Positions 1 to 50,439 of a stretch of 64,000 bases of DNA are shown here, piece after piece (within the stretch, counting starts at the first letter, position 1; each line of letters opens with the position of its first letter). The notes beneath the pieces are model-generated. The model was not told the DNA's origin, ran no database searches, and saw only the letters and a program-made list of their open reading frames with translations. Location of the stretch: assembly GCF_964204865.1 (NCBI RefSeq), contig NC_135252.1, forward strand, positions 11,491,383 to 11,555,382, in the 5' to 3' direction. Position numbers and translations under genes: made by a program. The stretch comes from Styela clava (Eukaryota; Chordata; Ascidiacea; Stolidobranchia; Styelidae).

Positions 1-29
1 TACAGCGGGCCAGGGTTTGGACCACCGTG
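1..29. mobile_element. right end of a hAT-type element cut by the window edge
   Basis: The first bases match the right ends of the GGCCCGC-rich hAT-like elements seen elsewhere in the window: GGGCCAGGGTTTGGACCACC then GTG, compare 11077-11096. The rest of the element lies outside the window, so length and target-site duplication cannot be checked; the next 8 bases (GGTTAGAT) would be the right-hand duplication. Confidence 0.5.
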
Positions 30-27000: not shown

Positions 27001-29313
27001 TACAAAATTATCATCAAACATTAAATGTTCAGGAATTTGTGTGCAGTAAACTTGCATCAATCTAACTGTGCCTCTGTGAACAGCAGCAAGTCGGCTATAT
27101 ATTCTTTCCTGATAAAAAATTATCAAAACATGTCAGCATTCTAATTTCAGGAGCAGAAAACCTCCATATTTTTGACAGGATGATTTGACGAAAATAGTTT
27201 CATAAGCATGAAATCATATCAGACACTCAGTATTGAATTAAATACCTGTACAGTACACATGTTCTTTAATTTTATATATTCTGACTTAATTGGAGTGTGT
27301 CTTATCACACTTTATTTATGTTATGTTTTGATGCACATAGGGAGAGATTTCAAAAAAATGACACATCACAGATGATAATGTTTTTTGAATGCATTGAATT
27401 GGTTTCAATGGTGTAGTTTGTTTTCATTTAGAGATATTTAGTCAAGATCAGGAACAATTTATGATACATACCTTTTTTACATTAGGTGTTCTATCTGCTT
27501 TATTGCTTCGGCTAAGATCTCCCTTGACAATCTGAACTTGTTGCTGAAGTGCATAAACTGTTCTTGAAGATTTTCTCATCTTCGGGAATTGAATAAAAAT
27601 AAATGTCAATTTGATCAGAAAAATATCACTTTTCTTTGTTTATTCAGCATTGGTTGCAAATGTATCACAAACTGTAGGGGCAGCAACCATGGTTGAAAAT
27701 TACCTCTGACTAGGCAAAAAAATTTCAATGCTTCTTTAGAAAGAATGTTAGGTATTTATAATTTTAATCTTTTAGTTAACTATGTCGAAATTTGGTTTAC
27801 ATTAATTAATTCTAATTACATTACCGTACATGAATTCTACAAACTGGGTTCTTTTGAATTAACAATCCAAAATTCATCTTAACTGTATTGTTAAAAATCA
27901 GAAGTTTCTATCTAGTACAAATTATGACATTTGTGACATATACATTGTCATGATCCATGAACATCGGCCATTAGTATATGTTTTTTAATTTGTAACCTGT
28001 TCAAGATGGCGAACTATCAATCTCTGTTCTTCTTCTTGATCCAAAGAAAGAAGTTTTTGTTGAAACAAAACATCACGATCTGCAAAATATTTGTTTTCAT
28101 TTTTCAGAACTGTCAACATCATATCTCTCATAAAACTTTGTATAGGCTATTAATATTTAGCTTTAACATATATCTGAAACCATATAACTACCGTAGTTAT
28201 TACTGTCAATAGCCTATTTTTCATTTTCTGATCTTTGAAGTCTTATTGAAATTTGTGTGGCTTGATAATAAGTTGATATACCAGCAATAAGAACCATTTA
28301 TTTGAAAATCTCGGAATAAGATAATTTGACATAGTTTCTTTTGATATCTCCATCAAATGCACACAAATAGAAAAAAGTTATTGGAGTATTTGGTTGCATT
28401 AAGTATTAGGTTGTATTAAGTAAGGCCGCAAAATTAAATTACTAGAATAATATGGGATTGCTGGAATAAATCATGAAACTCAAAAGCAACCGGATTCAGG
28501 TCCATGCTTCCGAAAACAAATCACTGGGTAATTCCATCTAACTAACCGAATGAGAGGCCGTGGTTCGCCATATGATTAGACCATATTATAGCCTTTTCTC
28601 TCCCCTGGGATAAATTTGTAAATCCTATCCTAATACCGTAAAACCCAAAATCGAAAAAAAACAATAATGAGGTTGAAAACACAGAAACATAGTACGGTAC
28701 CAAGTGTACCAAATGCTCACAAATTAGGGAAATCAAATAAATGAATGACAAAATGATATTACATCACATAACCTTGCATATTTTTGTCCATTGAAAAAAT
28801 ATGTTGCCTCAGATCTAGTCGCAATCTCTTAATATCAAGCATTTCTTGTTCATATTTGGAAGGTTTTGATACTGAAATTCCATTCAACTGACGATTTGGT
28901 GACTGTTTTCTTCCTTTTGGAACAGTCTTCTTTTTGTGTGTTTGAGTGTGATTGGACGATAACGGTAAATTGACTCCTTTTTTTGGTTTTGAATTAACGT
29001 TAGCATCTTTCTCAGAGTCTGTTGATATATACAGTTCATTTTCTTTAGCAAAAGCTTGAACAGCTTTTCTTCGCCTGGCAGATTTTAAGTCTTGTTTGGC
29101 AAGTTGAAGTGCTTTTGAAAGTCTATCATTGGACAGAACTGAAAGTCTTATTGGACTACCAGATCTTTTTTGATGGACTCTTTTGGATGGCCTGTGTCCC
29201 GCAGGAAGGATTCTTTCAAAAATGATTGCGCTTGGGCTAGCAAAATCAGTCTGCAGATTTTCTGGATCCACGGGCACGTCTAAATTAAACTGTAGTTGAT
29301 TCGCATGCAACAT
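21086..29313 (-). CDS. KIAA0753: moonraker (KIAA0753/OFIP), centriolar satellite protein
   Basis: Fourteen exons in coding order: 28773-29313, 27997-28079, 27472-27579, 26960-27108, 26456-26577, 25915-26091, 24969-25178, 24515-24621, 23246-23370, 22912-23041, 22574-22704, 21885-21963, 21633-21790, 21086-21278. All keep frame through GT-AG junctions and give 770 aa (human protein 967 aa). In vertebrates the protein acts at centrioles and centriolar satellites with OFD1 and FOR20 in centriole duplication and ciliogenesis. Diagnostic blocks in order: NQLQFN at residues 5-10; a basic Q-rich region with VYALQQQVQ; LAAVHRGTVRLMQ; ELSLCSLQLD (about 295-304); PEWIPPPNSP (about 409-418); ELRNRINPLLQK; IESLLMRLDAI; and the C-terminal motif LSDKVLDEV with MCEVYANDMFQREF (about 708-740). 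ATG 29313 is the first in-frame ATG after a stop at 29371-29373. The vertebrate N-terminus is longer, so an upstream exon is possible. The intron at 23371-24514 holds two hAT elements. Confidence 0.9.
23636..23950. mobile_element. non-autonomous hAT element A in a moonraker intron
   Basis: Termini CAGGGGTTCCCAAAC and GTTTAAGAACCACTG. The left flank ATATAGAT (23628-23635) and right flank GTATAGAT (23951-23958) match at 7 of 8 positions. It is 315 bp long with no coding content. It lies directly beside element B, sharing the central 8-mer. Confidence 0.8.
23959..24404. mobile_element. non-autonomous hAT element B in a moonraker intron
   Basis: Termini CAGGGGTGTGCAA and TTTGCACACCCCTG are flanked by the perfect duplication GTATAGAT (23951-23958 and 24405-24412). 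Subterminal GGCGGGCC and GCGGGCCGCA blocks place it in the GGCCCGC group. It is 446 bp long with no transposase. Confidence 0.9.
26388..26448. repeat. short direct repeat at a moonraker splice donor
   Basis: The unit AAGTGACAAACAAATAAACA occurs twice, about 38 bp apart, immediately downstream (in gene orientation) of the exon 5 donor at 26455. It is probably a small local duplication. Confidence 0.7.
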
Positions 29314-30658
29314 TGTGAACTTATCCAAAAATAAACAGTGAAATGCTTGTAAAGAAACCTTCTACACAAATTCAACAGAAAAGATAATTTATCGGCACAA
29401 ATTTTATTTCAAGCGTTTGTATTGACTGCTTTGTTCCGGGTCATCGAATGTTGCTGTAGTGATTTCGCCCTGAGGTATTTTAAACCTTTGACATCTATAT
29501 TAAATCTGTTGTCATCAGCCATTTATTGGGTAAATGTACTTTATTAGCTGAAAGAGGCTAGATAAGTAGTTCTGAACTGAAATTTATTTAAATTTTTATC
29601 ATAACGATATAACAACCGCCTTATAAGCTTTGCCCTTACATTAAATAGGTATGATATTTACATGGTCGTATCGCTTCTCCGGGCTCATACCAAAAACTAT
29701 ATTTATTATTATTGTATTGTGTATTGTAATACGGATATTTGTTTCAGAAAGTTCATTCTGTATTATGAGAGTTATAAGCTGGAAATTGGTATAGCTTAAA
29801 ACGACCGTCTGCATTTCAGAAAAACGAGCGTTCAAAGTACCAGTACGTAAATGCAGTAATACTCCTAGGCAACTTTCCATCGATGTTTTAAAATTTAAGT
29901 ACTATAGATTTATATCTGATAAGATCATAGAATCTCACGGAACTAATAGTTAAATGTATTGAATTATATGATACATTTGAAACTCATAAATATTCACTTT
30001 AGAAGCAGCCGACATTTTGAACAAAATTGCTCATAACTCAATGTCGGAAAGCATGTATAATGAATGAGTTCAATATATTCAAAGTCACAGATATATATGT
30101 ATGAGATTTATTTCTCAATAAAACCTAAGATTGAAATTAATATTTTAATTGGTTAAAACATAGACAAAACAGCACTAAGGGGTGTAGGCACATGTAGCCT
30201 AATTATTGTCATCTGTTACATAAGTACATCTCTTACTACTTTTTGTTTATTATTCAGGGTCACAATTTTGAATTGTGAACGTTGTGTATAACTTTTATGA
30301 TTACGTTTACGTGACTGCAATTGACTTTATTGATTGTTCAATATGTTGGTAAATATATGTATGACTGGACCAAAATATAGGCAGTTTGGGAGACAATTTA
30401 CCTTTATCCCTACATTAAAAATTAAAAAAAAGTTGCTCACGCTTTTGGTGGAATATATTTTATGTGAATAAATTTATTTCAACTGATAGAAAAACCTTTA
30501 AAAAATTTTGTTTATCGTTGTTTCTTACTGGTGAACTGAACGTTACACGTTGCAGGTTTCATGCCCAAACGCAGCAGACCATCTAGCCTATACAGGAGGG
30601 GATAATTTTAAGTGAACGTGATTAATCAATTCTTGTTAATTGCTAGTAATTAGTCGGA
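29314..30658. other. shared upstream region of two divergent genes
   Basis: 1.35 kb between the divergent starts of moonraker (minus) and the membrane protein (plus). It should hold both promoters. No TATA box in a convincing position, CpG-rich block or repeat could be assigned. The minus-strand open frame at 29641-29880 lacks support. Confidence 0.4.
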
Positions 30659-31720
30659 ATGAGTGTAGCTCAAATGCGTTCACAAAATGCCCATTTATCG
30701 ACTTTAGATCGCAAGGTAGTGATCATAGACGTTGTTTTGCGCAGGCGAATGTATATGCTAAATTTCACTGCGTCGTCATCTAATAAGCATACTGTGGTAT
30801 ATGAAGAATCGACCGAATCTGATGAAGGTTTCATGGTGCCCGCATGGAGCTTGGGAGTGACGTTTGTTTCAACTGTATTATGCTGTCTAATCATTTTAGC
30901 CGTTAGTGTTCGGTATCGCAAAAATAGACGCAATCGGAAGTTTTTACATAGATATACACAAAATGGGGGCCGAGTGACGATCGGCAAAAGGCGATTAAAT
31001 GAAGCAGCTAAGACAGATAAATACCACAATGGGATTGAAATACAAAGAAATATACCGGACATACGAATTGGTGGTTCAACTTGTAGCGCGTCGACGATGC
31101 AAAGCTGCCCTGATTATTGCGACAATGCTAAGCTTGGCGTCAAGCTTGATATTCCGCTTTCGAGCAATATATCTATGGCTTCTGGTGTGTATGCTCAAAT
31201 GAATACGACGCAAGATGCATTGAATGTCGGAGACGGTTCTTTATTTACACCCTCAAACAGCTTGAATCCAAATAATAGCGCTGCAGGATCACATTCCAAT
31301 TCGAGCATGTTTGGTGAAGGAAGCTATTTCACTCCGGTATTTCGACAACGGCCATATTCAACCGAGCAACGTGAATTTCCTACCCCAGGTATCATCAATT
31401 TTTCCAAAAGTGTTAGAAAGCATTTGACTTCGACGATATCAGCTATTGGAGGGGGCAGCGTTGGTACAGATAACGAAACAACAACAGTTGCCTGTTCCGT
31501 GTATAAAAACAGATTGGAAATATCAGATAATCAAATTCGACCACATCCATCAGTGACTTCGCTTCACGAAGTAATCGATAACACCGAAGCAACAAACAAC
31601 AACTGTACCTACCTAACATTTAACGATATATCTGCTCTAAACACTCCACCTGTCAGTTCCATACATCATAACCAACTCCACCGTCTGTCGTCTGAATTCA
31701 AACAGCAGACGTCAACTTAA
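30659..31720 (+). CDS. uncharacterised single-pass membrane protein, 353 aa
   Basis: Longest uninterrupted reading frame in the window. No family recognised. Residues 1-60 carry an N-glycosylation sequon (NFT, 35-37) and an acidic stretch (YEESTESDEG). Residues about 61-84 are a transmembrane helix (WSLGVTFVSTVLCCLIILAV), followed at once by the basic stop-transfer segment RYRKNRRNRK. This predicts a short outside segment and a tail of about 265 residues inside. The tail is rich in Ser, Thr and Asn with short motifs such as YLTFNDISALNTPPVSS. There is no N-terminal signal peptide, so it is either a signal-anchor (type III) protein or the last exon of a longer gene. An in-frame TAA at 30647-30649 argues for ATG 30659, but TTAG just after it could serve as a splice acceptor. 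ATTAAA (31914) and AATAAA (31938) follow the stop. Confidence 0.7.
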   Translation: MSVAQMRSQNAHLSTLDRKVVIIDVVLRRRMYMLNFTASSSNKHTVVYEESTESDEGFMVPAWSLGVTFVSTVLCCLIILAVSVRYRKNRRNRKFLHRYTQNGGRVTIGKRRLNEAAKTDKYHNGIEIQRNIPDIRIGGSTCSASTMQSCPDYCDNAKLGVKLDIPLSSNISMASGVYAQMNTTQDALNVGDGSLFTPSNSLNPNNSAAGSHSNSSMFGEGSYFTPVFRQRPYSTEQREFPTPGIINFSKSVRKHLTSTISAIGGGSVGTDNETTTVACSVYKNRLEISDNQIRPHPSVTSLHEVIDNTEATNNNCTYLTFNDISALNTPPVSSIHHNQLHRLSSEFKQQTST

Positions 31721-31992: not shown

Positions 31993-34900
31993 TCATGTGG
32001 TTTTTGTCTGAAAATAAAAATAAAATCATAATATAGCCCATGTGTTTAACTACGACTATTGTAGAACAAAACCTTCATATTGCTGAAATCAAAGTTTGAG
32101 TCGAGATGTCTCAACAGGAATGTAATCTTGTATACTTTCGTAATCCTGTTGTTTACAGGTTGGTTCAAATTACAATGACGTCGATATTTGGATACGTTTG
32201 AATGTCTCGATTTCAAGCCACCATGCTCTCCTTCACTTGTTCAGAGTTTGAAGAGGTTCATTGATGAATCTCTACACATTTTCTGAACAAGTCTATTAGG
32301 AGTAAGTGTGAGTCAGTTAGGCTACTCGAAGTACGTCATAAATTTGGCACATCCACCTCGACGAAAAATTCGAAACGATACAATATGGTTTGCCAAACTA
32401 GTGTGCTATAGCTATATTGAAGCGTGGTGAAATATCCGTATCTACATTTCAGAAAAAAAAAATATTAAGAACTTACTCCACATGGAGGCGGTGAATTGAA
32501 AGAATAGTCGCATAAACTTGATTCTTCATTGAAAACAGTACCGGGAGGACAGTTGTATATCACTTGATTTGATCCGTCACAAATGTAGAATGACTCGCAA
32601 GTATACAAGTACTGTTTCCCAGGTTCTCCTCCCTTTGTAAGCAAAAATATATTTATAATCGATGATCTAGGGCAGGTTACAAAATTCTCCCGAGCTGAAA
32701 GTTAGGATTGAATAAACTTGCGCAATTTCAGAAACGATCATGACCCATAGCAAGCAAAGATTGATAAAAATAAATTTAATAAAAGCAATTGGGTATTAAT
32801 CTATGGCAGTGATTTTCAACCTGAGGCCTGACAAACCTATGTATGACAAATCAGTATGGTCTGTAAGATGTCGCAAGTTCAATAATAGTACCAAACCTAA
32901 CAGATAATTGATTATATATATTATTTAAATGGATTTGGATGGATACTTGCGGAAACCCCGGACTGTAATGGCGGAAACATATTATAGTGAATCGGAACTC
33001 TGAATAAAAAACAGTGGTTCACAGTCTAGAAATAAATGTTATCAAGTTTTGCATCATGGTGTTTAGCGACTTTTTTAAAACTCTATCTTACAGGACAAGC
33101 TCCTGATGTAGAACCGTCATCAGTTGCGACTATTGGACTCGCAGTGGTCAGTGCGGCTGTTGTTGTTGTTGTTGTTGTTGTTAGTATTGACTGAGTAGTA
33201 GTGCTTGGATTCTTTGTTGTTGTAGTCTTAGCAGTTTGAGTAGAATTCTGCATTCACATTTAGAAAAAAAGTTTGTAAGTGTTTTATTAACTTTTTGGGA
33301 AGCGTAACAATCAGATCTTACCAAAATCGCTAAGAATCTATTTTAACGGCGTAAATGACTAGTGTAATGTCCATTTTTCTTATATGATGTGAACCATCTA
33401 CTTTTTTCACGCATCCTAAACTAATTTTGGTTTTCACAACGTTTCTCAATGTTATTGTATTCTTATATCCACAAAAAGTCAGCAGATGTTTGGATTCTCG
33501 ACAATCGTGTCTAAATTATTCCAGAAATAAATCCCAATCCTCAAATCGTGGACAAGCCTATAATCTAATCTATTATACCGTGAATCCAGGAGGAGGAAAA
33601 GTGGCCCCTGTTCCAATAGCTATGTCAGCACAGCCATAAAATTCTTCTTGTGGTCCACATCCTGAACAACATTCGCCGTCACTATCGCAATTCCAGGTGT
33701 TCCCTGTACATTGGAAGAGATATAATGTGTTAATGTTTAAAACGTCAGCGAATGAAAATGTTTACAAGAATGAATTTATATATATATTTTGTAAACATTC
33801 TGTCAACTTATTCGACGTATCATATATATATATATATCTTTTTTTCTTCATAAATTTGTTGTAAAAAGTAGTTTTACAATGGTCGTGCTGTGTAGGTGAT
33901 TATCGCGCTACCGGGTTTCACGACTGGAAAATTTTTTTTTTTATGATTTTGTTATTATGAACCCATCTTTTATAACCCATTCTTGGTGGTAATTTTTAAA
34001 AATTATAATTGATTGAAATAACCTGCTTTGTACTTCCACTGTAGAACGCACTGGTCGCATTCGATTTCCTCCGGTAACTTCAGCGTAACATCAAAGTATT
34101 GCGAACTGCCACCTGTAGAAGTTGGAACCATCCATTGAGTACTACCTTTATTATTTGCCAAGACATACCTGTTAGAATATTGAAATATCGATTTTTGAAT
34201 TAGGCAACGGTAATGCTGGTCTACTGAAATCGTTCTCGAGAATATTATGTCAACGCCAGACTTTTCTTTTGCAAACTTTCCGTTGATAATCTGATAAACA
34301 AAAATATTTGGCCAATGCTCTAATCCCAATACCACCACAACCAAACAATCTAATTCTAGCAAAATTAATATTTAAATATAGAGCTTTCCCGTTGAGGATT
34401 CAAATAATTATGCATATAAACGAATCTTTGTTTCGAATATGGGACTAATACATCAGACAGTTTATAACATTTAAAATTAATATTTAGGCTCGTTTCGTAG
34501 GGTTATTGCAGGAAATGATTAGGCGTCTTGTTGGAATACCATGACTAAATGGAAAATGATGTAATGTATTGAATGTCAATATTTTTCAAGATTACTTCGT
34601 GCTGCGACCCAGTGTGTACATTGTATAATATCACAATCTATTTATAGGCATCTCCTTACCCATGTTTGGGAACCACACAGATGTAAGGTCTGAGGTTTTG
34701 CGTTAGGCGCTAGTTCATCCCAATATAGACCAAAGGTAAAGTGATCTGTTTGCCTTTAGATAAACCTTGCTCTCTAAGAATAAAATTTGTTAAACAGTCA
34801 TTCCAAAATATTGCAAATTCACTTGAATATAGTCTAAGTTCATATGAATATTTTGATATTGAACTCACTGATCTAAGCATTCATGTGTAATAGGTACAGC

Positions 34901-36265
34901 TACATTGTTCCATGGACAAAGCCTAAATTCAAAATATCCCTTGTGATGTGCAGTCAGTTCCACGGTCACTGTGAACCAGCTACCTAAAAAGAACACGTTT
35001 CTGTTGATTTAAATCTATTATCGTCATTTTCTTTTTTGCGTTCTTTGATGTTTCAGTAATAAGATTGTCAGACGCATCAATTTAGTAATTAATTAACGCG
35101 TAATGTTATATGGGTATCAAAGTTTACTGTGCTTTGTTTGCTGTGTTCTTAATAAATATAATTTACAAAGACTGATAGAGGCATTCAATTCCGTCATTAT
35201 ATATGTGTTTGGTGCGCAAGTAATGATGCGAATAACTTTCTCAGTCCAACTGCAGTGAATTATTTAAACATCTATTATGATTTACCCGGAGTGTATTGTT
35301 CAACTATTATCCCTTTGGCATATTTTCCCCCGGCTTCATTTTCTTTTACATCAGCATCCCACGGATCTCCACAAACACCACATTTTCCACCTAAGTTTTG
35401 TTGGTACTGGAAAGGAACATTACAAGTTGATTTGTTAAAGTTACGCATTTTTTGAAAAGGAGTTTTCAAATATAAAATGATGTTCCGGATTTTCCAGACC
35501 CTGGATTCGAAAAAAAATAATCACTTGAATGTGGGTGGCTCATACAATTCCAGAACTTACAAATCAATTCCATATGCGTCATCCCAGTGTAACGCGTATC
35601 ATGTTGGTTCTAATATTTGTGTAAATAACAGTGATTAACAACGTCCATCTTTTATCTGAGGTATGATAAATTGCATAGGACTTAAAAATCTGAGCAATTC
35701 CAGTTTGTTCAATTCACTGTCTTTAAATGTTTAAATAAAACCTCAGATAATAAAAAACAGAAACAAGAGCTTAGAGTAAAATCCCTTCTTACCATGAAGC
35801 CGCCACAAAATAGCTCATTATCGTTGAAGTTTTCTTCTACGATGTCCAAGTATGGTTTGATAGCCGGATCGTCAGGATATCTCCACATTGTAGACCTGCT
35901 GTGTGGAACTCGAAGTCGACCATGGCCATGTACATGCGCCACCAGTACAAGCATACACCAAGCTATAAAACATTTTTGCGTCCATGGTTAGATTATTAAA
36001 TTCAGCTAAACTGGGAAGTGTCGAATATGAATTGAAGAAAAAATGAACTTTTTTCTTTGCTTGTTCCATTTGCGAAATAAATGATCATGCTACGTTTAAT
36101 ATGAAGGAACCATCGGTAATGGATTGTGTAACATATTGTTGATTAACCTTCGCACAAACCATCAAAAGTACGTATTTAATCCTGTTGAAAACTCAAAAAA
36201 ATATCTTGCTCGACATTAACAAATAAGTAATACTTACATGTCAACAAAACGCTTAAACGCCCCAT
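31993..36265 (-). CDS. AA15 lytic polysaccharide monooxygenase with CBM14 domain (gene 1)
   Basis: Predicted secreted copper enzyme that oxidatively cleaves chitin or cellulose. Nine exons in coding order: 36238-36265, 35793-35962, 35286-35406, 34869-34983, 34023-34168, 33579-33703, 33092-33247, 32477-32632 and 31993-32007; 343 aa. The signal peptide ends near VHG-22, so the mature chain starts HGRL with His23 as the N-terminal copper ligand. The second ligand is His120 in TAHHKGYFEFRLCPWN; Phe215 in CGPQEEFYGCADI is in the axial position. Other AA15 marks are NELFCGG, KCGVCGDPW and CDQCVLQWKY. A Thr-rich linker (residues 236-285, with eight Thr in a row) leads to a CBM14/peritrophin-A domain whose six cysteines are 286, 299, 305, 315, 328 and 338. 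The last exon encodes TKTT and the stop; reading through the exon 8 donor would instead end VSS. The paralogue's matching TKGV exon supports the splice. Confidence 0.92.
33158..33181. repeat. (TGT)8 trinucleotide tract coding for polythreonine
   Basis: Eight TGT units on the plus strand read as ACA (Thr) codons in exon 7 of LPMO gene 1, in the linker between catalytic and chitin-binding domains. Repeat slippage here would change linker length without shifting the frame. Confidence 0.85.
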
Positions 36266-36774
36266 ACTTTTGTGAGCTCTGGAAGATGTTCGACGTTGAC
36301 GTGCTTCCCGAATATATACTGTTGATGTGCGATAACAGTCTTAAATAGTTCCAACGCATTGTTTGTGTTCTATATTAAACTATTTAAACTTATATCTAGG
36401 AATGACGCCAAGTTTGATAACTTAATTTCAGTTTAAGATAGTATTTAAAATTTTACATAGTGGATATTTTGAGCTTGGAATATTGTTATGAAGTATGTTC
36501 TAATAAAGGCCGCGAGAACTAATTCACAAAAAATATATATTACTCTATTATATATACTGTAATAAATATACAGTTTATAATTATATAGAGGACTTGCACC
36601 GGTCACGTGACTTTGTTTACTGGTATGACAAACTACTGTTATTGCCTTGTGTAAGGAATTAATCATCAATTGCCATAAGGTACCGGTATTGTTTCCCTAG
36701 TTAGCAGGTAATCTATTAGTAAGTGTGAAAAGTTGAATAGATAACTAAAGTTTAACGCCACTGCTCATGCAAAT

Positions 36775-36960
36775 AATAACCAGAATTCAATTGAATTCGC
36801 CATCTAGGAATACGCTCGCCACCGCATCTCTGATCACCCTGGTAGTTTCACAGGTTCCAATCCCATGCGGGGATAGTTATGTGCGAGAGGATTGCAGCTC
36901 TCCTCCCACTGAGGGTGGTTCACACGACCGCTGGTCGATTAAAAATTTTAGGTAAAAGAC
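36775..36960 (+). repeat. tRNA-derived SINE-like sequence (copy 1)
   Basis: Contains CAGGTTCCAATCCCATGCGG, close to a polymerase III B box (GGTTCGANTCC). GAATACGCTCGCCACCGC lies upstream where the tRNA head would be, and TGAGGGTGGTTCACACGACC downstream. Start and end are approximate. A second copy lies at 38606-38791 inside the tandem duplicate. Confidence 0.45.
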
Positions 36961-38002
36961 CATTGTAGTTTTGAATGTTATGAACTGCGCGCGATGTATA
37001 AAATCCCGTCGTAATCCAAGAAGTGCACTACCTAAGTGCACTTGGATTTTAAATATTCATAATCAGATTTTGCTACACTACTCAGCCACGATTTCAATTT
37101 TATTTAAAACTTAAATATTGCCATTAGATTTAAAAGCATCACATAATTTTTTTACATCAATGATAAGTCTAACTGATTCGTATTTTCGAATCTTGCCATT
37201 AGACAGAACAATTATATCTGAAAAATGTGAAACCACTGAATGTCATTCTTGAAAAAGAAGGCAGACGACTTTATCTATTATTGAATAATGTCCTTTTTCG
37301 TTCATTGTAGCTTATATTTTTTACCAAAAGTCAACAGACTGAAGTTCGGTATTCGTCTGTCTAAAGGCGTCTGGAATTGTCAGTGCTGACTATCTTAGTA
37401 GTGATGAAGTAGGGAAGCCACTTAGTTGGGCAATTATTTGAAAGTACCAATTTTTTCTGGTATCGCAGGAATGTCTTTTAGCACGGTCGAGCATCAGGGC
37501 CAGATGATAGCCTTTAGAGGTCAAGAGCACTTAAGACTTCAGTACCCCATATATAAAAAAAATATTAATAATAAGAATGTAGCTACGATTCCGTGTTATC
37601 TGAAATCGAAGAGGCAGGTTTCAGTATTCCTTACTGATTGAAGGCCGATTTATATTTAATTTACCTTATTTTTTTTCAAATAGTTGTCATAACTACAAAC
37701 ATTTATGAGGTTTAAGTGACACGAGCAAGAAAAACAAGCAAAATTCATTTCAACCGGGCCAATATTGAGGTCTAAATCATCTGACCGATCATTTCATTAA
37801 AACACTGGGGTATTATTGAAAACTTGGTCATGAACATTTCTGTGGTGCCCTCCCTTCCTTAGTGCCCTAAGGTCCCTTTATGGTCAATTCAGCTCTGGCT
37901 ACAACACCTTTGCATTATTATACGCCTACAAATTCGTCAGCCTAATAGTAATAGAGCAAGACTAAATGGAGTTTTAACCCAAACTCATACTTTCAGTAGT
38001 AG

Positions 38003-38186
38003 CGATGAAATGCCATTTAAATGTGTAACGACGGACGCTCTCTAATAGTATTGGGGTCACAGTGAAATTCTATTTAAACGTTCAACGACTGACGCTTTTT
38101 AATAGGGTTGAAGTAACGGCGAAATGCTACTTGAAACATTTAACGACTGACGCTTTTTAACAGTATTGAAGTTGCGGTGAAACGCC
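38003..38186. repeat. 57-bp minisatellite, three units (copy 1)
   Basis: Three degenerate units of 57-58 bp, each with AACGACTGACGCTTTTTAA or a close variant and a GTGAAAT-like start. The same units recur in the second duplicate copy near 39830-40012, and relatives occur at about 54075-54165. Confidence 0.75.
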
Positions 38187-38261
38187 AAACCATCACGAAT
38201 TTTTTCATTAAACACTGGATCGCCATTGGAAAATCGACTATGGAAATTTCTGTGGTGTCCC

Positions 38262-40085
38262 GTTTAAGATAGTATTTAAAATTTTACATAGTGGATATTT
38301 TGAGCTTGGAATATTGTTATGAAGTATGTTCTAATAAAGGCCGCGAGAACTAATTCACAAAAAATATATATTACTCTATTATATATACTGTAATAAATAT
38401 ACAGTTTATAATTATATAGAGGACTTGCACCGGTCACGTGACTTTGTTTACTGGTATGACAAACTACTGTTATTGCCTTGTGTAAGGAATTAATCATCAA
38501 TTGCCATAAGGTACCGGTATTGTTTCCCTAGTTAGCAGGTAATCTATTAGTAAGTGTGAAAAGTTGAATAGATAACTAAAGTTTAACGCCACTGCTCATG
38601 CAAATAATAACCAGAATTCAATTGAATTCGCCATCTAGGAATACGCTCGCCACCGCATCTCTGATCACCCTGGTGGTTTCACAGGTTCCAATCCCATGCG
38701 GGGATAGTTATGTGCGAGAGGATTGCAGCTCTCCTCCCACTGAGGGTGGTTCACACGACCGCTGGTCGATTAAAAATTTTAGGTAAAAGACCATTGTAGT
38801 TTTGAATGTTATGAACTGCGCGCGATGTATAAAATCCCGTCGTAATCCAAGAAGTGCACTACCTAGGTGCACTTGGATTTTAAATATTCATAATCAGATT
38901 TTGCTACACTACTCAGCCACGATTCCAATTTTATTTAAAACTTAAATATTGCCATTAGATTTAAAAGCATCACATAATTTTTTTACATTAATGATAAGTC
39001 TAACTGGTTCGTATTTTCGAATCTTGCCATTAGACAGAACAATTATATCTGAAAAATGTGAAACCACTGAATGTCATTCTTGAAAAAGAAGGCAGACGAC
39101 TTTATCTATTATCGAATAATGTCCTTTTTCGTTCATTGTAGCTTATATTTTTTACCAAAAGTCAACAGACTGAAGTTCGGTATTCGTCTGTCTAAAGGCG
39201 TCTGGAATTGTCAGTGCTCACTATCTTAGTAGTGATGAAGTAGGGAAGCCACTTAGTTGGGCAATTATTTGAAAGTACCAATTTTTTCTGGTATCGCAAG
39301 AATGTCTTTTAGCACGGTCGAGCATCAGGGTCAGATCATAGCCTTTAGAGGTCAAGAGCACTTAAGACTTCAGTACCCCATATATAAAAAAATATTAATA
39401 ATAAGAATGTAGCTACGATTCCGTGTTATCTGAAATCGAAGAGGCAGGTTTCAGTATTCCTTACTGATTGAAGGCCGATTTATATTTAATTTACCTTATT
39501 TTTTTTCAAATAGTTGTCATAACTACAAACATTTATGAGGTTTAAGTGACACGAGCAAGAAAAACAAGCAAAATTCATTTCAACCGGGCCAATATAGAGG
39601 TCTAAATCATCTGACCGATCATTTCATTAAAACACTGGGGTATTATTGAAAACTTGGTCATGAACATTTCTGTGGTGCCCTCCCTTCCTTAGTGCCCTAA
39701 GGTCCCTTTATGGTCAATTCAGCTCTGGCTACAACACCTTTGCATTATTATACGCCTACAAATTCGTCAGCCTAATAGAGCAAGACTAAATGGAGTTTTA
39801 ACCCAAACTCATACTTTCAGTAGTAGCGATGAAATGCCATTTAAATGTGTAACGACGGACGCTCTCTAATAGTATTGGGGTCACAGTGAAATTCTATTTA
39901 AACGTTCAACGACTGACGCTTTTTAATAGGGTTGAAGTAACGGCGAAATGCTACTTGAAACATTTAACGACTGACGCTTTTTAACAGTATTGAAGTTGCG
40001 GTGAAACGCCAAACCATCACGGATTTTTTCATTAAACACTGGATCGCCATTGGAAAATCGACTATGGAAATTTCTGTGGTGTCCC
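38262..40085. repeat. 1.83-kb direct tandem duplication, copy 2
   Basis: Second copy of 36431-38261. It differs by scattered single-base changes and two small deletions: 6 bp at the CCTAATAG site and 1 A in a poly-A run, which explain its 7-bp shorter length. Open frames in both copies are identical non-coding by-products. Confidence 0.95.
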
Positions 40086-41116
40086 GTTTCCTTGGTGCCC
40101 TTTGCACGTGCTTTTTTGCTTTTAGTCAATCCAGCCCTGCCCGGCATTCACACTCACCAAGCTAATTCGGCTAGCAAACTACAAGCAAAGTTTGGTGCAT
40201 CTCGCTCTGGGTTCGGCGGGATAGCAACAGTTATACTGCTTACTATTATATCAGTAATAAGATAAACACCCTGACTTGTCACATATTTTTGATACTAGTC
40301 ATTGCAAATATATATCACAAAGATTCGCCTGAAACCGTTGGCCCGGTAGACTATAAAATATAAAGTCTCCGGTGTACCGTGTATGGCAACTGGCCTACAA
40401 ACTAGACATTTGTCACCATGGCGAAGAAATAATATCTATTTACAATCACGACGGTAACAGCACAAACACTCTGACCTGATATTGTTGCATAAGTATTTTT
40501 CCAGAAATTTCGTAGCCATGGGGCCGTTCATCCGACAATAGACGAATGCCCAGCATATCACAAAGTTTGGCGTGACTCGCTCTGTGTTGGATAAATGAGT
40601 AATTCTTACTTATACCTTGTCCGCTGTTTTATTAGCTCAAAGCAGCTGGCCTAGAAGGCTACTAATCCGAGTCTTTTGCTCTTAAGTCCGAGAAAAAATA
40701 TGAATTAAAACTGAAATAATATTATATCTATAGTCTGTGAATGTGTTTTGATCGAACTTGTAAACGTCATCGTGTAAACTGTAATACAAATGAAGAATAT
40801 CTGATAACACGCACATTCAATTTTATGTTCCATGTTTTATTATAGTTTTCTTTCCTCATTGAGTTTTCTAAAAAATTCAATCTAGTCGTTTCATATAAAA
40901 CGACAACTTGACATTCTTATGAAGTTTAGAATTTTATTTACAAGGTTTGACGTGTACGTCATGTAAAACTAAAGATAGTGTAAAAGGAGAACATTGATAT
41001 GAATTATCAAGAAAATTGCATTGAATAATTAATGGAAAATACGTAATATTATGTCATAGCGTCATGATGTCTATCCTGTACAATTTATCGAACAGACATT
41101 CATTCCAGTGACCAGT
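40086..41116. other. gene-free stretch
   Basis: Intergenic DNA between the tandem duplication and the last exon of LPMO gene 2. The start repeats the TTTCTGTGGTG-CCC wording of the duplicated unit. No gene or RNA was found. Confidence 0.45.
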
Positions 41117-44100
41117 TTACACACCCTTTGTCTGCAAAAAGAGATTTATCGTGCAGTTAGTATCATGCAACAAAATGTTTTGTACCCGAGTAAATAATAA
41201 CTATTTGAAATATTTGGTGGATATTCAATTCATCAAAATTACAAATGTATTTATAGCATTTACTCTAGCTTATTTTCATACGCTCATTCGATGGAAAATC
41301 TTAATATGCTAAGCTATATGGTACTAACCCCACAATCAGGAGGTACGTTGTACGGGTGATCGCATGCTTGCCTCTCTTGGTTCCAGACAGTCCCTAAAGA
41401 ACATTTATATTCATAGGCTACTCCTCCCGAGCAAGTATAGAACGAAGTGCAGTCTTTCATTTTTCGTCCAGTTTCGTTAGTCTGTCAACGCAAAGAAAGT
41501 TCTTGTTTTGCTGTTTCTGATAAACCGTACTAAATATTTCACAGAGAGTCATAGGTTGTCAACATAAGGGTTTAGGAATTGCAAAAGTTTGGTAATAAAT
41601 GTTTCACTGCATGATAAGTACATGCACAACTGGAGAAAAGCAAGGATATAGTTTTGCAAATATCGAATATCTGAACAAACGAACTGCATTCAGGAGTTGA
41701 ATAACTGTATCTGTATTTACAAGAAAATGTCTGATAGCAGCTCATAGTTTCAACTTAAATTTGTTGGAACTAAACTAAAATTAGTTGTTATATCAAACTT
41801 TCAACTACTTGATAGGCTAGGATTTTTTTAAAACGATAAGGTAAAAATTTAATGAAGCCTGATACCAAATTTATTCTGGACATTTGCGCGTAGCTGCACA
41901 AATAGAAGTCTTCTCAGGAAGGGACGTATTGTCATTCAATGGTAACATTTTACAATCTTGAAAATCGGCGCTCACCCCACATATAGCCTCACTTGAACTA
42001 ACTGTTGTTGTAGTCTTAGTTGTTGTAGTAGTTGGCGTTGTTGTAGTACTCATGATAGAAGACAGCAAAGGCGATCTCGTTGTAACAGTCTTGAATAAGG
42101 AAAAAAGTAAAGATTCTACGAACAATAGTCCAAATTGAATGAAATTAATTCTCAAGTACCGATAGTATAAATTTTGATATAACGGCGTCATATGCTGCTA
42201 CATGCCTAGGCAAACTCGAAACAACATGGGAGCATCTCCGGGTATCCATTCAATTATGTTTATAAAATTGTCCACTTGAATGGCAAAAATGGCTCTGGTG
42301 AGCACTCATAACTGTTGTAAATTTGGTACATTGTCAACTATAAGAGTAATCTCCAAGCTTGTCCATGGGACATATTTTTCTGTCCCATTCCCATCCCATC
42401 CCATGGGATTCCCATTGGAAATTCAATAAAAAATATCAAATTTAGGTTTAGCAACTACCAAATAAGACTACATGTACGAATAGACATGCAAAACAACAAA
42501 ATTTACGGACTTGGTTAACTTCGTATTCATAACTATTATACATGTGCCCATCAGTCCTTTCACGAAGTATATTGTTAATGCCGAATATATTCTGCTCTTT
42601 ATAACTAACAAGAGAACTATGCACAATATATGGGCACGAGGTCCATAACAAAATGTTTTACCATAATTTCCCCCAAAATCATACGGTTTTCGTGCCCCAC
42701 GTGTCCCATGGGAAATAAAAAGAGTGCTGTCCCATCCCATTAGACGTTTCCCATGGAAATCCTATTCCCATGGACAAGCCTGGTTATCTCACTTTAGCAG
42801 TCGAAGAGACTTCAATTGAACTAGCTCCAATAGAGATATCGGCACATCCATAAAATTCTTCCTGATCTCCGCAACCAACGCAGCAGGCGCCATTGTTATC
42901 ACATCCCCAAGAATTTCCTGTTTTATTATTCAACATTCTTATCACTTAATTAGGCTAATACTTTAAAATGGATTCTATCTCAAAACATATTACTCACAAA
43001 ATGAATATGTTTCCTCCATATTCTAACCATTTTAGTCAAAAATATTTATACGAATACGTTCGTAAATATAAGCTTTTTAAGTAAATATTACTTTTTAATA
43101 AACATTATTTTAAACTGAGTTGGAGCATAATAGTTGCCGATAAAAACATCATTTTATCTCCAGAGAATAAAAAGGTTTGTTCTACTGCTTTCATCGTGCG
43201 CATTTTATACTGTTTCAAACTGTAACTACAGTTATTTACCAGTGTGATATCTCCACTGCAACACACATTGATTACATTCCACGCCATCAGGAAGTTTTAT
43301 AGGGACACTGTAAATTTGATTTCCGTTTTCTGGGAGAATCCATCTGGTATCTTCTGGACTTGCAGTATGAAGCAGGTACCTTAAAATATCTTTGAAGTTA
43401 TGTTACTATAAAATCGGGGTAGAAAGTTCATAAAATCCGATCATGGTGTTTAGATGCAGTAGCGTATCTAAGGTATGACAACCGTGGCCTGTGCCATGGG
43501 CGCCGTTAGGATAGGAGCAAAAGGTTTTAATCGTAAAATATTTGATAGGTATGTGATACTATATTATAACAAGCGTGTCATACGTAACACAAAAATAATT
43601 ACGTTTTGTAGTAAAACCCTTTACGGAAAATGTAATTCAAAATTTTCTTGTCTGGTACTCGATTGCTCATTGTTATTTTTTATTAACACAATACATACCT
43701 CAACTTCTTTTTTAATTCAATGAAGTAGTTCAATGAACTATTAACAAATGGAATTGTATATTAAAATCAATACTACACATTTGAAATTATTCTCACCAGT
43801 TCTTACAAGTCGCGACTGAAACGGATGGTTTGTCCCATGGACACAGACGAAATTCGAAATATCCTTTGTGATGAGCAGTTATTTGGACTTGTGCTGTAAC
43901 CCATTCACCTGTCGAAATGAGTTGGCATTGGCTAGAAATATTTGGCTGAAATAACGTTCAGAATTTATATCAACTATCAAATATTACTGTTGAGTTAACT
44001 AAATGTTTCTAGAATAGTAACAAGAGCATGAATGCCTGAATTTTGGTAATGTTGTGTTATGATTCCTTTCGCATATTTTCCTCCAGCTTCATTTTCTTTA

Positions 44101-44881
44101 ATTGCTGCATCATATGGATCACCACATATCCCGCATGTCATGTGAAGTGATTGTTGATGCTGAATATATAGTTATATATAGAATATATATAATATAATAT
44201 ATATATTATTATATAGAATGTCTATTCAAATTATTCTGGTCGTTTTAGGACGAAAAACATTTTTACAACCCATTGAATTTACTGTAGTGCATACGTTATG
44301 ATTCAAATAACCATTATATTTAATTTTATCTATAATTTCTCAAGGCATATAAGTTAAACAAATCATAATTACCAACTTACCGTGCTTTTATATAGTTTAC
44401 TAACCAAAAACATATTTGGCACACAATGACTGCTTTCAGTGTTGTTATACGACTTTGCTTGTAATGAATAATTTGATACAAAATCACACTTACAGCAAAT
44501 CCACCACAAAACAATTCATTATCCTGATAATTTTCTTCAACTAATTCCCTTTGTGATTTAGTAAGACCTAACTCATCTTGGAATCTCCATATTGTAGAAC
44601 GTGATACCGGTTCAATCAGACGTCCATGTCCTTCAACCAGAGAAAACAAAAATAGGACACACATCACTGCAATAAAAATGAATTTTCTTGGTTAAAACTA
44701 TCCATAAATTTTTAAAAACTAATTTTGTAGTCATATAATTTTTAATTTCCGATTTTGTATAACTCTAAATTGAGTCCGAGAAAAGTCAGTAATAAAAATA
44801 AAATATTGAATTGTAAATATTAAATTTTCTTTGTATAAGCGTAAAATTATTCTTACTTGAAGTAATGATCAATTTCGTCAT
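41117..44881 (-). CDS. AA15 lytic polysaccharide monooxygenase with CBM14 domain (gene 2)
   Basis: Tandem paralogue of gene 1, also predicted to be a secreted copper oxidase of chitin or cellulose. Exons in coding order: 44857-44881, 44494-44666, 44036-44159, 43797-43908, 43240-43379, 42793-42917, 41976-42089, 41329-41481 and 41117-41131; 326 aa. The signal peptide ends near VEG-21 and the mature chain begins HGRL (His22, copper ligand). The second ligand is His121 in TAHHKGYFEFRLCPWD, with Phe213 axial in CGDQEEFYGCADI. NELFCGG, TCGICGDPY and CNQCVLQWRY are conserved. A Thr-rich linker (TTTTPTTTTTKTTTT) precedes CBM14 with cysteines 270, 282, 288, 298, 311 and 321. The last 15-nt exon encodes TKGV. 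Exon order and intron phases equal those of gene 1. Exon 3 appears to end at a G|GCATTC site, a GC-type donor. A hAT element sits in the intron after exon 6. Confidence 0.9.
42354..42782. mobile_element. non-autonomous hAT element (CAGGCTTGTCC family) in an LPMO intron
   Basis: Inverted termini CAAGCTTGTCCATGGGA and TCCCATGGACAAGCCTG. Flanks GTAATCTC (42346-42353) and GTTATCTC (42783-42790) match at 7 of 8. Internal CCCATCCCATGGG runs recur at the other end. The right flank duplication ends two bases from exon 6 of LPMO gene 2, so it covers positions +3 to +10 of the intron. A fragment of the same family is at 9115-9216. Confidence 0.85.
44160..44220. repeat. AT-rich palindromic tract
   Basis: Runs of ATATAT, partly self-complementary, directly upstream of exon 3 of LPMO gene 2. 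Low complexity only. Confidence 0.6.
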
Positions 44882-49004: not shown

Positions 49005-50439
49005 TTATTTCTGGCACAACACTCCGTTCTGAGATGTTGTTGGATCAATGGAATAAATTCCGTCTGAACCATAGAAGTTGTCGATACGAATACCCATCTT
49101 GGTCCCAGATTTTTCAGGAGTCGTAGCATCTGGGTGATATTTTGTGAATGCAGCTGCGGTGCCACTGGAAAGATGAACAGACTTATCCTGTAAAAAGGTC
49201 ACAATAAAGATACATGTTGAGCGAATTAATAATCCATTTGCGCGCATTTTCAAAAGTGTTCCAAATGTATAAAATTCATATAATTTTTTTCTACGTTTCT
49301 CCAACAACAATCGATTTATTTTTATATATTTATACCATATATAAAAATCTGGCTTTGTTGTACATTCGGACACGTATAGCGTAAGAACGATGTGTGGAAA
49401 AATTGTATCAACAAACATATACGGTAATTGAAAATCTGACATCGTCTATTTTGTTATATTAGTACACACCAAAAGTCCAACACTGTACATACCGAGGGAT
49501 TATAAATCATCCCTGTCCAAATCTTGAAAGAGGTTGTTGACATGATTGATCGGACATATCCAACAACCATGCTGTAAAGATTTGAATCTACGATATCTGC
49601 TGTTTTTCCGGACTTCTTTCTGCATGTTTCAACTCCTTTGTCGAACGTTATTGCATCTTGATCCCCCGTTATAACGGCCCAGTAGCATACTCCGCGGTAG
49701 ATAAAACCTCCACAAGTCACTGTAGCAAAAAGTAACTCGTCACATTGCGGTTGTGTAAAACTACTAGTGAAACATGTATAGTAATGACATAGGTTTTAAC
49801 ACATTAACAATTTTATTTTTCAGCATTATACATACACCTTTTCTTGGATGGTTTTTACAAATATCTTTCATATACTTTATAAAGGTTTACCTTCGTCTAA
49901 TTTTGCCATTATTCTTTGATCCATTTCTTCTAATTTTTTTGCAACTAGATGAAAAAAAATTAAATTCTAAATGAGTATAAAAACCGTCACATCAAGCATG
50001 TATCAAAACGGTTAATTTCAATATGGAGTTTTTCAGTTGTCAAAAAATCTATATAATATATGAAGATATCTGTCAGCAAATTACTCGTTCTTTGATACTT
50101 GTTAAAATTCATATCAATAACATAAAATAGTATTCAAAAGCATATCACATCGGCAATTTACAAAATACTTCAGATGTTCGGACGTTTGAAAAGTTTCATT
50201 AAATATGTTTGCATGTGTAAAATCCGATAGCTATTACTGTTATCTTCACTTATCAGTATGAAATTTTGGATTTATAACACTTGGAATATCGTTATTCTAT
50301 ACACATGGACGTGATATAATTTACCTGATTCCATCGAATCCTCCATTCTATTATGAGTGAGCGAACAAATTCCTTTGCGAGCATTTACATTGCCGTATGC
50401 AGATAACAACAACAGTATAGTCAAATAAACTCGAGTCAT
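49005..50439 (-). CDS. secreted C-type-lectin-like protein, 192 aa
   Basis: Exons in coding order: 50325-50439, 49891-49944, 49493-49719 and 49005-49187, joined in phases 1, 1, 0. ATG 50439 opens a signal peptide (MTRVYLTILLLLSAYGNVNA). The short second exon encodes AKKLEEMDQRIMAKLDE, a likely coiled-coil that could assemble oligomers. The rest fits a C-type-lectin-like domain: the long-form N-terminal cysteine pair (Cys59, Cys68), the first helix with ETCRKKSG (Cys89), the core IWTGMIYNPS, and the final NGVLCQK (Cys190). The inner disulfide pair of classical domains and the EPN, QPD or WND calcium/sugar motifs are absent. Carbohydrate binding of the classical type is therefore doubtful, and protein or other ligand binding is possible. 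A role in immunity or matrix recognition would be inference. Confidence 0.82.

Follow-up and report, generated by a model that had tools for sequence, protein, structure and literature searches.

Two neighboring AA15-CBM14 monooxygenase genes in a tunicate genome, predicted to act on chitin

The window analyzed here is a stretch of 64,000 nucleotides (C3:11491383-11555382 in a genome of 376.6 Mb and 379 contigs) and harbors two neighboring genes, A and B, predicted to encode lytic polysaccharide monooxygenases (LPMOs) of family AA15 that carry a CBM14 module. The two are arranged head to tail, both on the minus strand, and each encodes, in this order, a hydrophobic leader, the AA15 catalytic domain, a linker rich in Thr and the CBM14. 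Exon models, Pfam and matches to the solved structure 5msz confirmed the claim of the first-pass annotation that two nine-exon AA15-CBM14 genes with the same intron phases lie here, within a span (31993 to 44881) that runs from the last coding base of B to the first coding base of A. The spliced models are as follows.

41117 to 44881, minus strand: gene A, AA15 LPMO with CBM14, 326 amino acids, nine exons
Gene A exons 1 to 5, minus strand: 44881-44857, 44666-44494, 44159-44036, 43908-43797, 43379-43240
Gene A exons 6 to 9, minus strand: 42917-42793, 42089-41976, 41481-41329, 41131-41117
31993 to 36265, minus strand: gene B, AA15 LPMO with CBM14, 343 amino acids, nine exons
Gene B exons 1 to 5, minus strand: 36265-36238, 35962-35793, 35406-35286, 34983-34869, 34168-34023
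Gene B exons 6 to 9, minus strand: 33703-33579, 33247-33092, 32632-32477, 32007-31993

Protein searches of the genome with B and with A gave at least 21 exon matches each at E values up to 10 and located two paralogs. A whole-profile search with PF03067 returned zero matches in the genome, though the protein queries found exons, likely because the exons are short.

C10:14.377-14.380 Mb: gene C, AA15-CBM14, found by protein search
C19:3.8957-3.8973 Mb: gene D, catalytic exons of an AA15-CBM14 gene, found by protein search

A sequence search identified TdAA15A (PDB 5msz) as the nearest solved structure for both proteins, with the match to 5msz_A spanning residues 1-193 for gene B (E 2.5e-41) and 1-195 for gene A (E 3.4e-37). 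Pfam LPMO_10, a profile broader than AA15, and CBM_14 scored above their cut-offs in all four genes. For A and B, the PDB and Pfam matches were obtained with 8-exon models that deviate from the final models by no more than a few residues at the C-terminus. The likeness to TdAA15A covers the whole catalytic domain (identity 44.6% for A, 46.0% for B and 44.1-47.6% across A-D) and includes the His brace, the equivalents of Ala89 and nine of the ten 5msz cysteines, which occupy the same columns in A, B and C, with the tenth one column off. The hydrophobic leaders (21 residues in A and 22 in B) are predicted to be cleaved, exposing an N-terminal His. The residue numbers assigned earlier to the copper site proved exact, the predicted ligands being His22, His121 and axial Phe213 in A and His23, His120 and axial Phe215 in B. 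They are housed in the following exons.

44494 to 44666, minus strand: gene A exon 2, end of the signal peptide and N-terminal His22 (first copper ligand)
43797 to 43908, minus strand: gene A exon 4, second copper ligand His121 (AHHKG)
42793 to 42917, minus strand: gene A exon 6, Trp195 (at the TdAA15A Tyr166 site) and axial Phe213
35793 to 35962, minus strand: gene B exon 2, end of the signal peptide and N-terminal His23
34869 to 34983, minus strand: gene B exon 4, second copper ligand His120
33579 to 33703, minus strand: gene B exon 6, Trp197 and axial Phe215

At the TdAA15A sites Tyr24, Ala89, His91, Tyr166 and Tyr184, genes A, C and D have Tyr, Ala, His, Trp and Phe, and gene B has Phe, Ala, His, Trp and Phe. 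The difference from TdAA15A that all four paralogs share is therefore a Trp at the Tyr166 site and an axial Phe in place of Tyr184. Gene D keeps eight of the 5msz cysteines in column, with one shifted and one lost. Its sequence (L023 4850-4747) lacks the exon 6 GCG cysteine and the CC pair of A, B and C, and retains the copper ligands and the axial Phe.

The catalytic domain is followed by the linker and the CBM14, each on an exon of its own (Pfam CBM_14 cut-off, 22.1 bits).

41976 to 42089, minus strand: gene A exon 7, Thr-rich linker
41329 to 41481, minus strand: gene A exon 8, CBM14 (Pfam CBM_14 E 3.3e-10, 40.4 bits)
33092 to 33247, minus strand: gene B exon 7, Thr-rich linker
32477 to 32632, minus strand: gene B exon 8, CBM14 (Pfam CBM_14 E 4.5e-8, 33.5 bits)

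Six CBM14 cysteines are present in each of A, B, C and D. The CBM14s of A and C are identical in 31 of 54 columns, and those of A and B in 25 of 57, as compared with 57.4% identity in the catalytic domain. The divergence of the CBM14s beside an intact copper site, part of what the first-pass annotation had described, is borne out by these values and by the intact ligands, but it does not extend to the cysteines, all six of which are kept in both modules. Different targeting of the two enzymes had also been suggested; this is not supported, as the two CBM14s, though divergent, give no evidence of different ligands.

The exon models were compared between the paralogs. The intron phases after exons 1 to 8 are 1,0,1,2,1,0,0,0 in both A and B (eight of eight junctions), an agreement that is expected between homologous genes and adds no independent evidence. 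Every predicted acceptor in the pair is AG and the donors are GT, save one.

44030 to 44035, minus strand: gene A intron 3 donor, GC (CAG|gcattc), weak, the sole non-GT donor of the pair, giving a GC-AG intron

An alternative for exons 3 and 4 of gene A, found by eye, combined a GT donor (CTT|GTTACT) with an upstream acceptor. It was rejected and the GC-AG junction kept because the alternative adds residues without counterpart in B, C, D and 5msz. GC-AG introns occur in two of the four paralogs at different positions, the other being intron 6 of gene D (L023, GAG|gcaagt).

The weakest parts of the models are exon 1, which is short and whose start, donor and leader were picked by eye, and the 15-nt exon 9, whose acceptor was chosen from the five (A), eight (B) and eight (C) candidates listed. 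The choice for exon 9 was made because the ends of A (TKGV*), B (TKTT*) and C (TRLQ*) then match in length, phase and start. The chosen acceptor is the top-ranked candidate in B, and the longest pyrimidine tract lies elsewhere in A and C. A GTAAGT donor one codon past the last CBM14 cysteine is found in paralogs C and D as well. An 8-exon model ending GVSS*/GVSTI* was rejected because C and D have that donor at the same place and C has a 15-nt last exon. A search for the last exon of gene D found none, and the nine-exon count is supported in three of the four genes (A, B and C). In the protein alignment of these three, the introns after exons 1-5 and exon 8 fall in identical columns, the intron after exon 6 lies in the gappy linker, where its position varies by as many as eight columns, and the intron after exon 7 shares one column in A and B and is three columns off in C. 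Introns 2-5 and 7 of gene D agree in alignment columns; its exon 1 was modeled as an upstream frame without an intron, and its first junction therefore provides no evidence.

The two neighbors had been taken for a tandem pair of paralogs. They do adjoin and share the AA15-CBM14 architecture, but they are not each other's closest relatives: catalytic-domain identity is 72.5% between A and C, 60.3% between B and C, 57.4% between A and B, and 51.0-54.1% from D to the other three. In a tree of five sequences (A, B, C, D and 5msz), A and C were split from the rest with SH-aLRT/UFBoot values of 97.6/96. As A is nearer to C than to B, the pair is by its sequences not a recent local duplication, and an older duplication was probably followed by the relocation of a copy.

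Divergence between A and B amounts to a dN of 0.37 and a pS of 0.88, and across the six pairs of A-D to a dN of 0.18-0.48 and a pS of 0.71-0.88, with silent sites at or near saturation. A dN well below the saturated silent divergence is suggestive of long purifying selection and suggests that A and B have both been retained by selection. This bears on the alternative that A, B or both are copies in decay or without expression. The weak GC-AG donor needed in A would fit such a state, and a clearly degenerate AA15 piece does exist on C19. However, the frames of A and B are open through nine exons, the ligands are intact, dN is 0.37 against saturated silent sites, and a GC donor is also used in D, so that we consider decay very improbable. 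The piece on C19 is an AA15 match with an internal stop (C19:3866759-3866893), on the strand opposite to D and about 23-30 kb away from it. About 3.5 kb beyond this match lies a CBM14-like match (L024:9241-9396) from which two cysteines are absent, and the whole looks like a degenerate copy.

To place the enzymes in their host, genes for cellulose and chitin synthesis were examined; statements from the literature rest on excerpts of the cited papers. A GH6 match above the cut-off was found at C9:16.18 Mb. Upstream of the GH6 exon, an open frame on that strand matches Cellulose_synt (E 8.6e-7) and Glyco_trans_2_3 (E 1.9e-16) and contains TED and QRSRW motifs, which we take to be cellulose synthase motifs. 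The GH6 exon behind this frame has an E value of 9.9e-11, and the two regions may belong to one transcript. A C-terminal GH6-like domain is stated for the CesA of tunicates and not for that of other organisms (PMC7464555); CesA itself is reported from every tunicate genome but from no other animal genome (PMC6523144). The cellulose synthase frame with GH6 thus points with high confidence to a tunicate host, which the first-pass annotation had raised as a condition only.

The same genome holds at least 11 chitin-synthase places (exon query, E up to 0.001).

C4:18.04-18.21 Mb, C4:2.33/2.80/3.28 Mb, C5:2.15 Mb and C9:14.70 Mb: chitin-synthase places (L032-L042), nine of them on C4

The motif LDGDVDF is present in 11 of 11 of these loci and EDR[WY]L in nine. 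The places at C4:2.33, 2.80 and 3.28 Mb share 96.7-98.0% identity across some 4 kb, which indicates recent copies or assembly duplicates. A lineage expansion of chitin synthase is possible. More than one chitin synthase copy is described as the rule, from which Ciona intestinalis is said to depart (PMC3942024), and our literature search turned up no paper titled for a tunicate expansion.

Characterized AA15s provide a guide to the substrate. TdAA15B, with an axial Phe, yielded C1-oxidized products from alpha- and beta-chitin and none from PASC or Avicel, and TdAA15A, with an axial Tyr, yielded C1-oxidized products from both cellulose and beta-chitin (PMC5823890). By these assays both characterized Thermobia AA15s act on chitin. 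Genes A-D share the axial Phe of TdAA15B, with which they were compared by its published description. The sequences from T. domestica are stated to consist of the catalytic domain only (PMC5823890), so that both TdAA15A and TdAA15B would differ from A and B in having no CBM14. Insect LPMO15-1 (TcLPMO15-1) likewise has Trp at 166 and Phe at 184 by TdAA15A numbering and is required for efficient turnover of the chitinous cuticle; its C-terminal six-cysteine repeats are, however, stated to be unrelated to CBM14 (PMC9156745). In Ciona, the protein VCBP-C attaches to chitin beads via CBM14, and the gut envelope membrane consists chiefly of chitin nanofibers with cellulose intermingled (PMC6109156).

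The question of tunic cellulose, gut chitin or food as substrate, which had been posed for this pair, is narrowed toward chitin by the axial Phe and the Trp in place of Tyr166, by the CBM14, and by the animal's own chitin synthases. A and B are most likely secreted tunicate AA15 LPMOs that are active on chitin with the help of their CBM14, the chitin being that of the animal's own gut membrane or of food. Once the signal peptide is removed, the N-terminal His and the second His would hold one copper ion, with the Phe in axial position, and the AA15 domain would oxidatively cut crystalline chitin. The flexible Thr-rich linker, probably O-glycosylated, would join this domain to the CBM14, which would retain the enzyme on chitin fibrils, and the fibrils would be opened for chitinases. 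The chitin could come from the gut envelope membrane or from food.

Alternatively, the enzymes might act mainly on tunic cellulose and loosen the animal's own tunicin in growth or tunic remodeling. The cellulose synthase frame with GH6 in the host favors this, as does the cleavage of cellulose as well as chitin by TdAA15A of the same family (PMC5823890). However, the module is a CBM14 and not a cellulose-binding one, and the axial Phe with Trp at the Tyr166 site is found in chitin-type AA15s. We regard mainly tunic cellulose as unlikely, and chitin appears, on the present sequence analysis, to be well ahead of it as substrate.

Within the chitin assignment, the enzymes could serve digestion or defense against foreign chitin from crustacean plankton, fungi or algae. 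The same domain evidence fits this version, and a midgut-specific group of insect AA15s has been discussed as digestive and/or as acting on peritrophic-matrix chitin (PMC9156745). However, the 11 chitin-synthase places suggest much endogenous chitin, and no sequence feature separates foreign from endogenous chitin. We hold foreign chitin to be a possible but not the favored source.

Several points weigh against chitin-active enzymes as proposed here. The axial residue is a loose predictor of substrate, and the assay results come from two AA15s. Enzymes of the AA15 type can also cut cellulose, as TdAA15A does; cellulose is made by the host and is present to some extent in the gut membrane of Ciona. 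GH18 exons are present in the genome, but none of the 13 GH18 matches listed is near the AA15 genes. Finally, one of the TdAA15A cysteines is missing from gene D, and some copies of the family may therefore be inactive.

LPMOs have been reported from tunicates before. The LPMO orthogroup ENOG5028N9R is present in all tunicates examined (PMC8704543), and AA15s are described across animals and other groups; the same source reports AA15 fusions to CBM14 in general terms and, from tunicates, AA15 fusions to GH18 (PMC5823890). Compared by description, these are LPMO genes like A-D, which differ from the AA15-GH18 fusions in having CBM14 and no adjoining GH18 match among those listed. Tunicate AA15-CBM14 fusions may already be among the architectures of PMC5823890. 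In the titles and abstract openings searched, which cover few subscription papers, no tunicate AA15-CBM14 enzyme was described.

Between A and B, the window contains a young-looking duplication.

36431 to 40089, no strand: two head-to-tail copies of about 1.83 kb, 98.97% identical, wholly intergenic between A and B

Within it lies an inner repeat offset by 57 bp, and the duplication is either younger than the LPMO genes or an assembly artifact. Beyond gene B, a 356-codon open frame (30650-31717, plus strand) with one membrane-like hydrophobic stretch by eye gave no Pfam match at E 0.01 and lies tail to tail with B, their ends about 270 bp apart. An open frame at 28762-29361 (minus strand) matches Protein moonraker (MNR, PF15718, E 2.3e-12), and the region 49457-49795 (minus strand) is C-type-lectin-like by eye, with no Pfam match at E 0.01.

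Genes A and B add to an enzyme family already reported from tunicates, with a sharper prediction of substrate than before. The residue signature together with the CBM14 gives the testable prediction of chitin, and the natural variation between A and B allows targeting to be compared. Since cellulose and chitin are both made by a tunicate, its own LPMOs can show how an animal steers an oxidative enzyme to one or the other of its two endogenous crystalline polymers. Rather speculatively, as many as four AA15-CBM14 enzymes, whose CBM14s diverge, together with expanded chitin synthases, might form a chordate kit for oxidative chitin remodeling. If true, such a kit would serve to form, thin out and shed the chitin barrier of the gut, and perhaps act on chitin elsewhere, alongside a separate cellulose system in the same animal. 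When chitin synthesis was blocked in Ciona, the gut membrane was disrupted, microbes touched the epithelium and survival was cut (PMC6109156); enzymes that remodel this membrane would therefore be relevant to how gut barriers arose in chordates.

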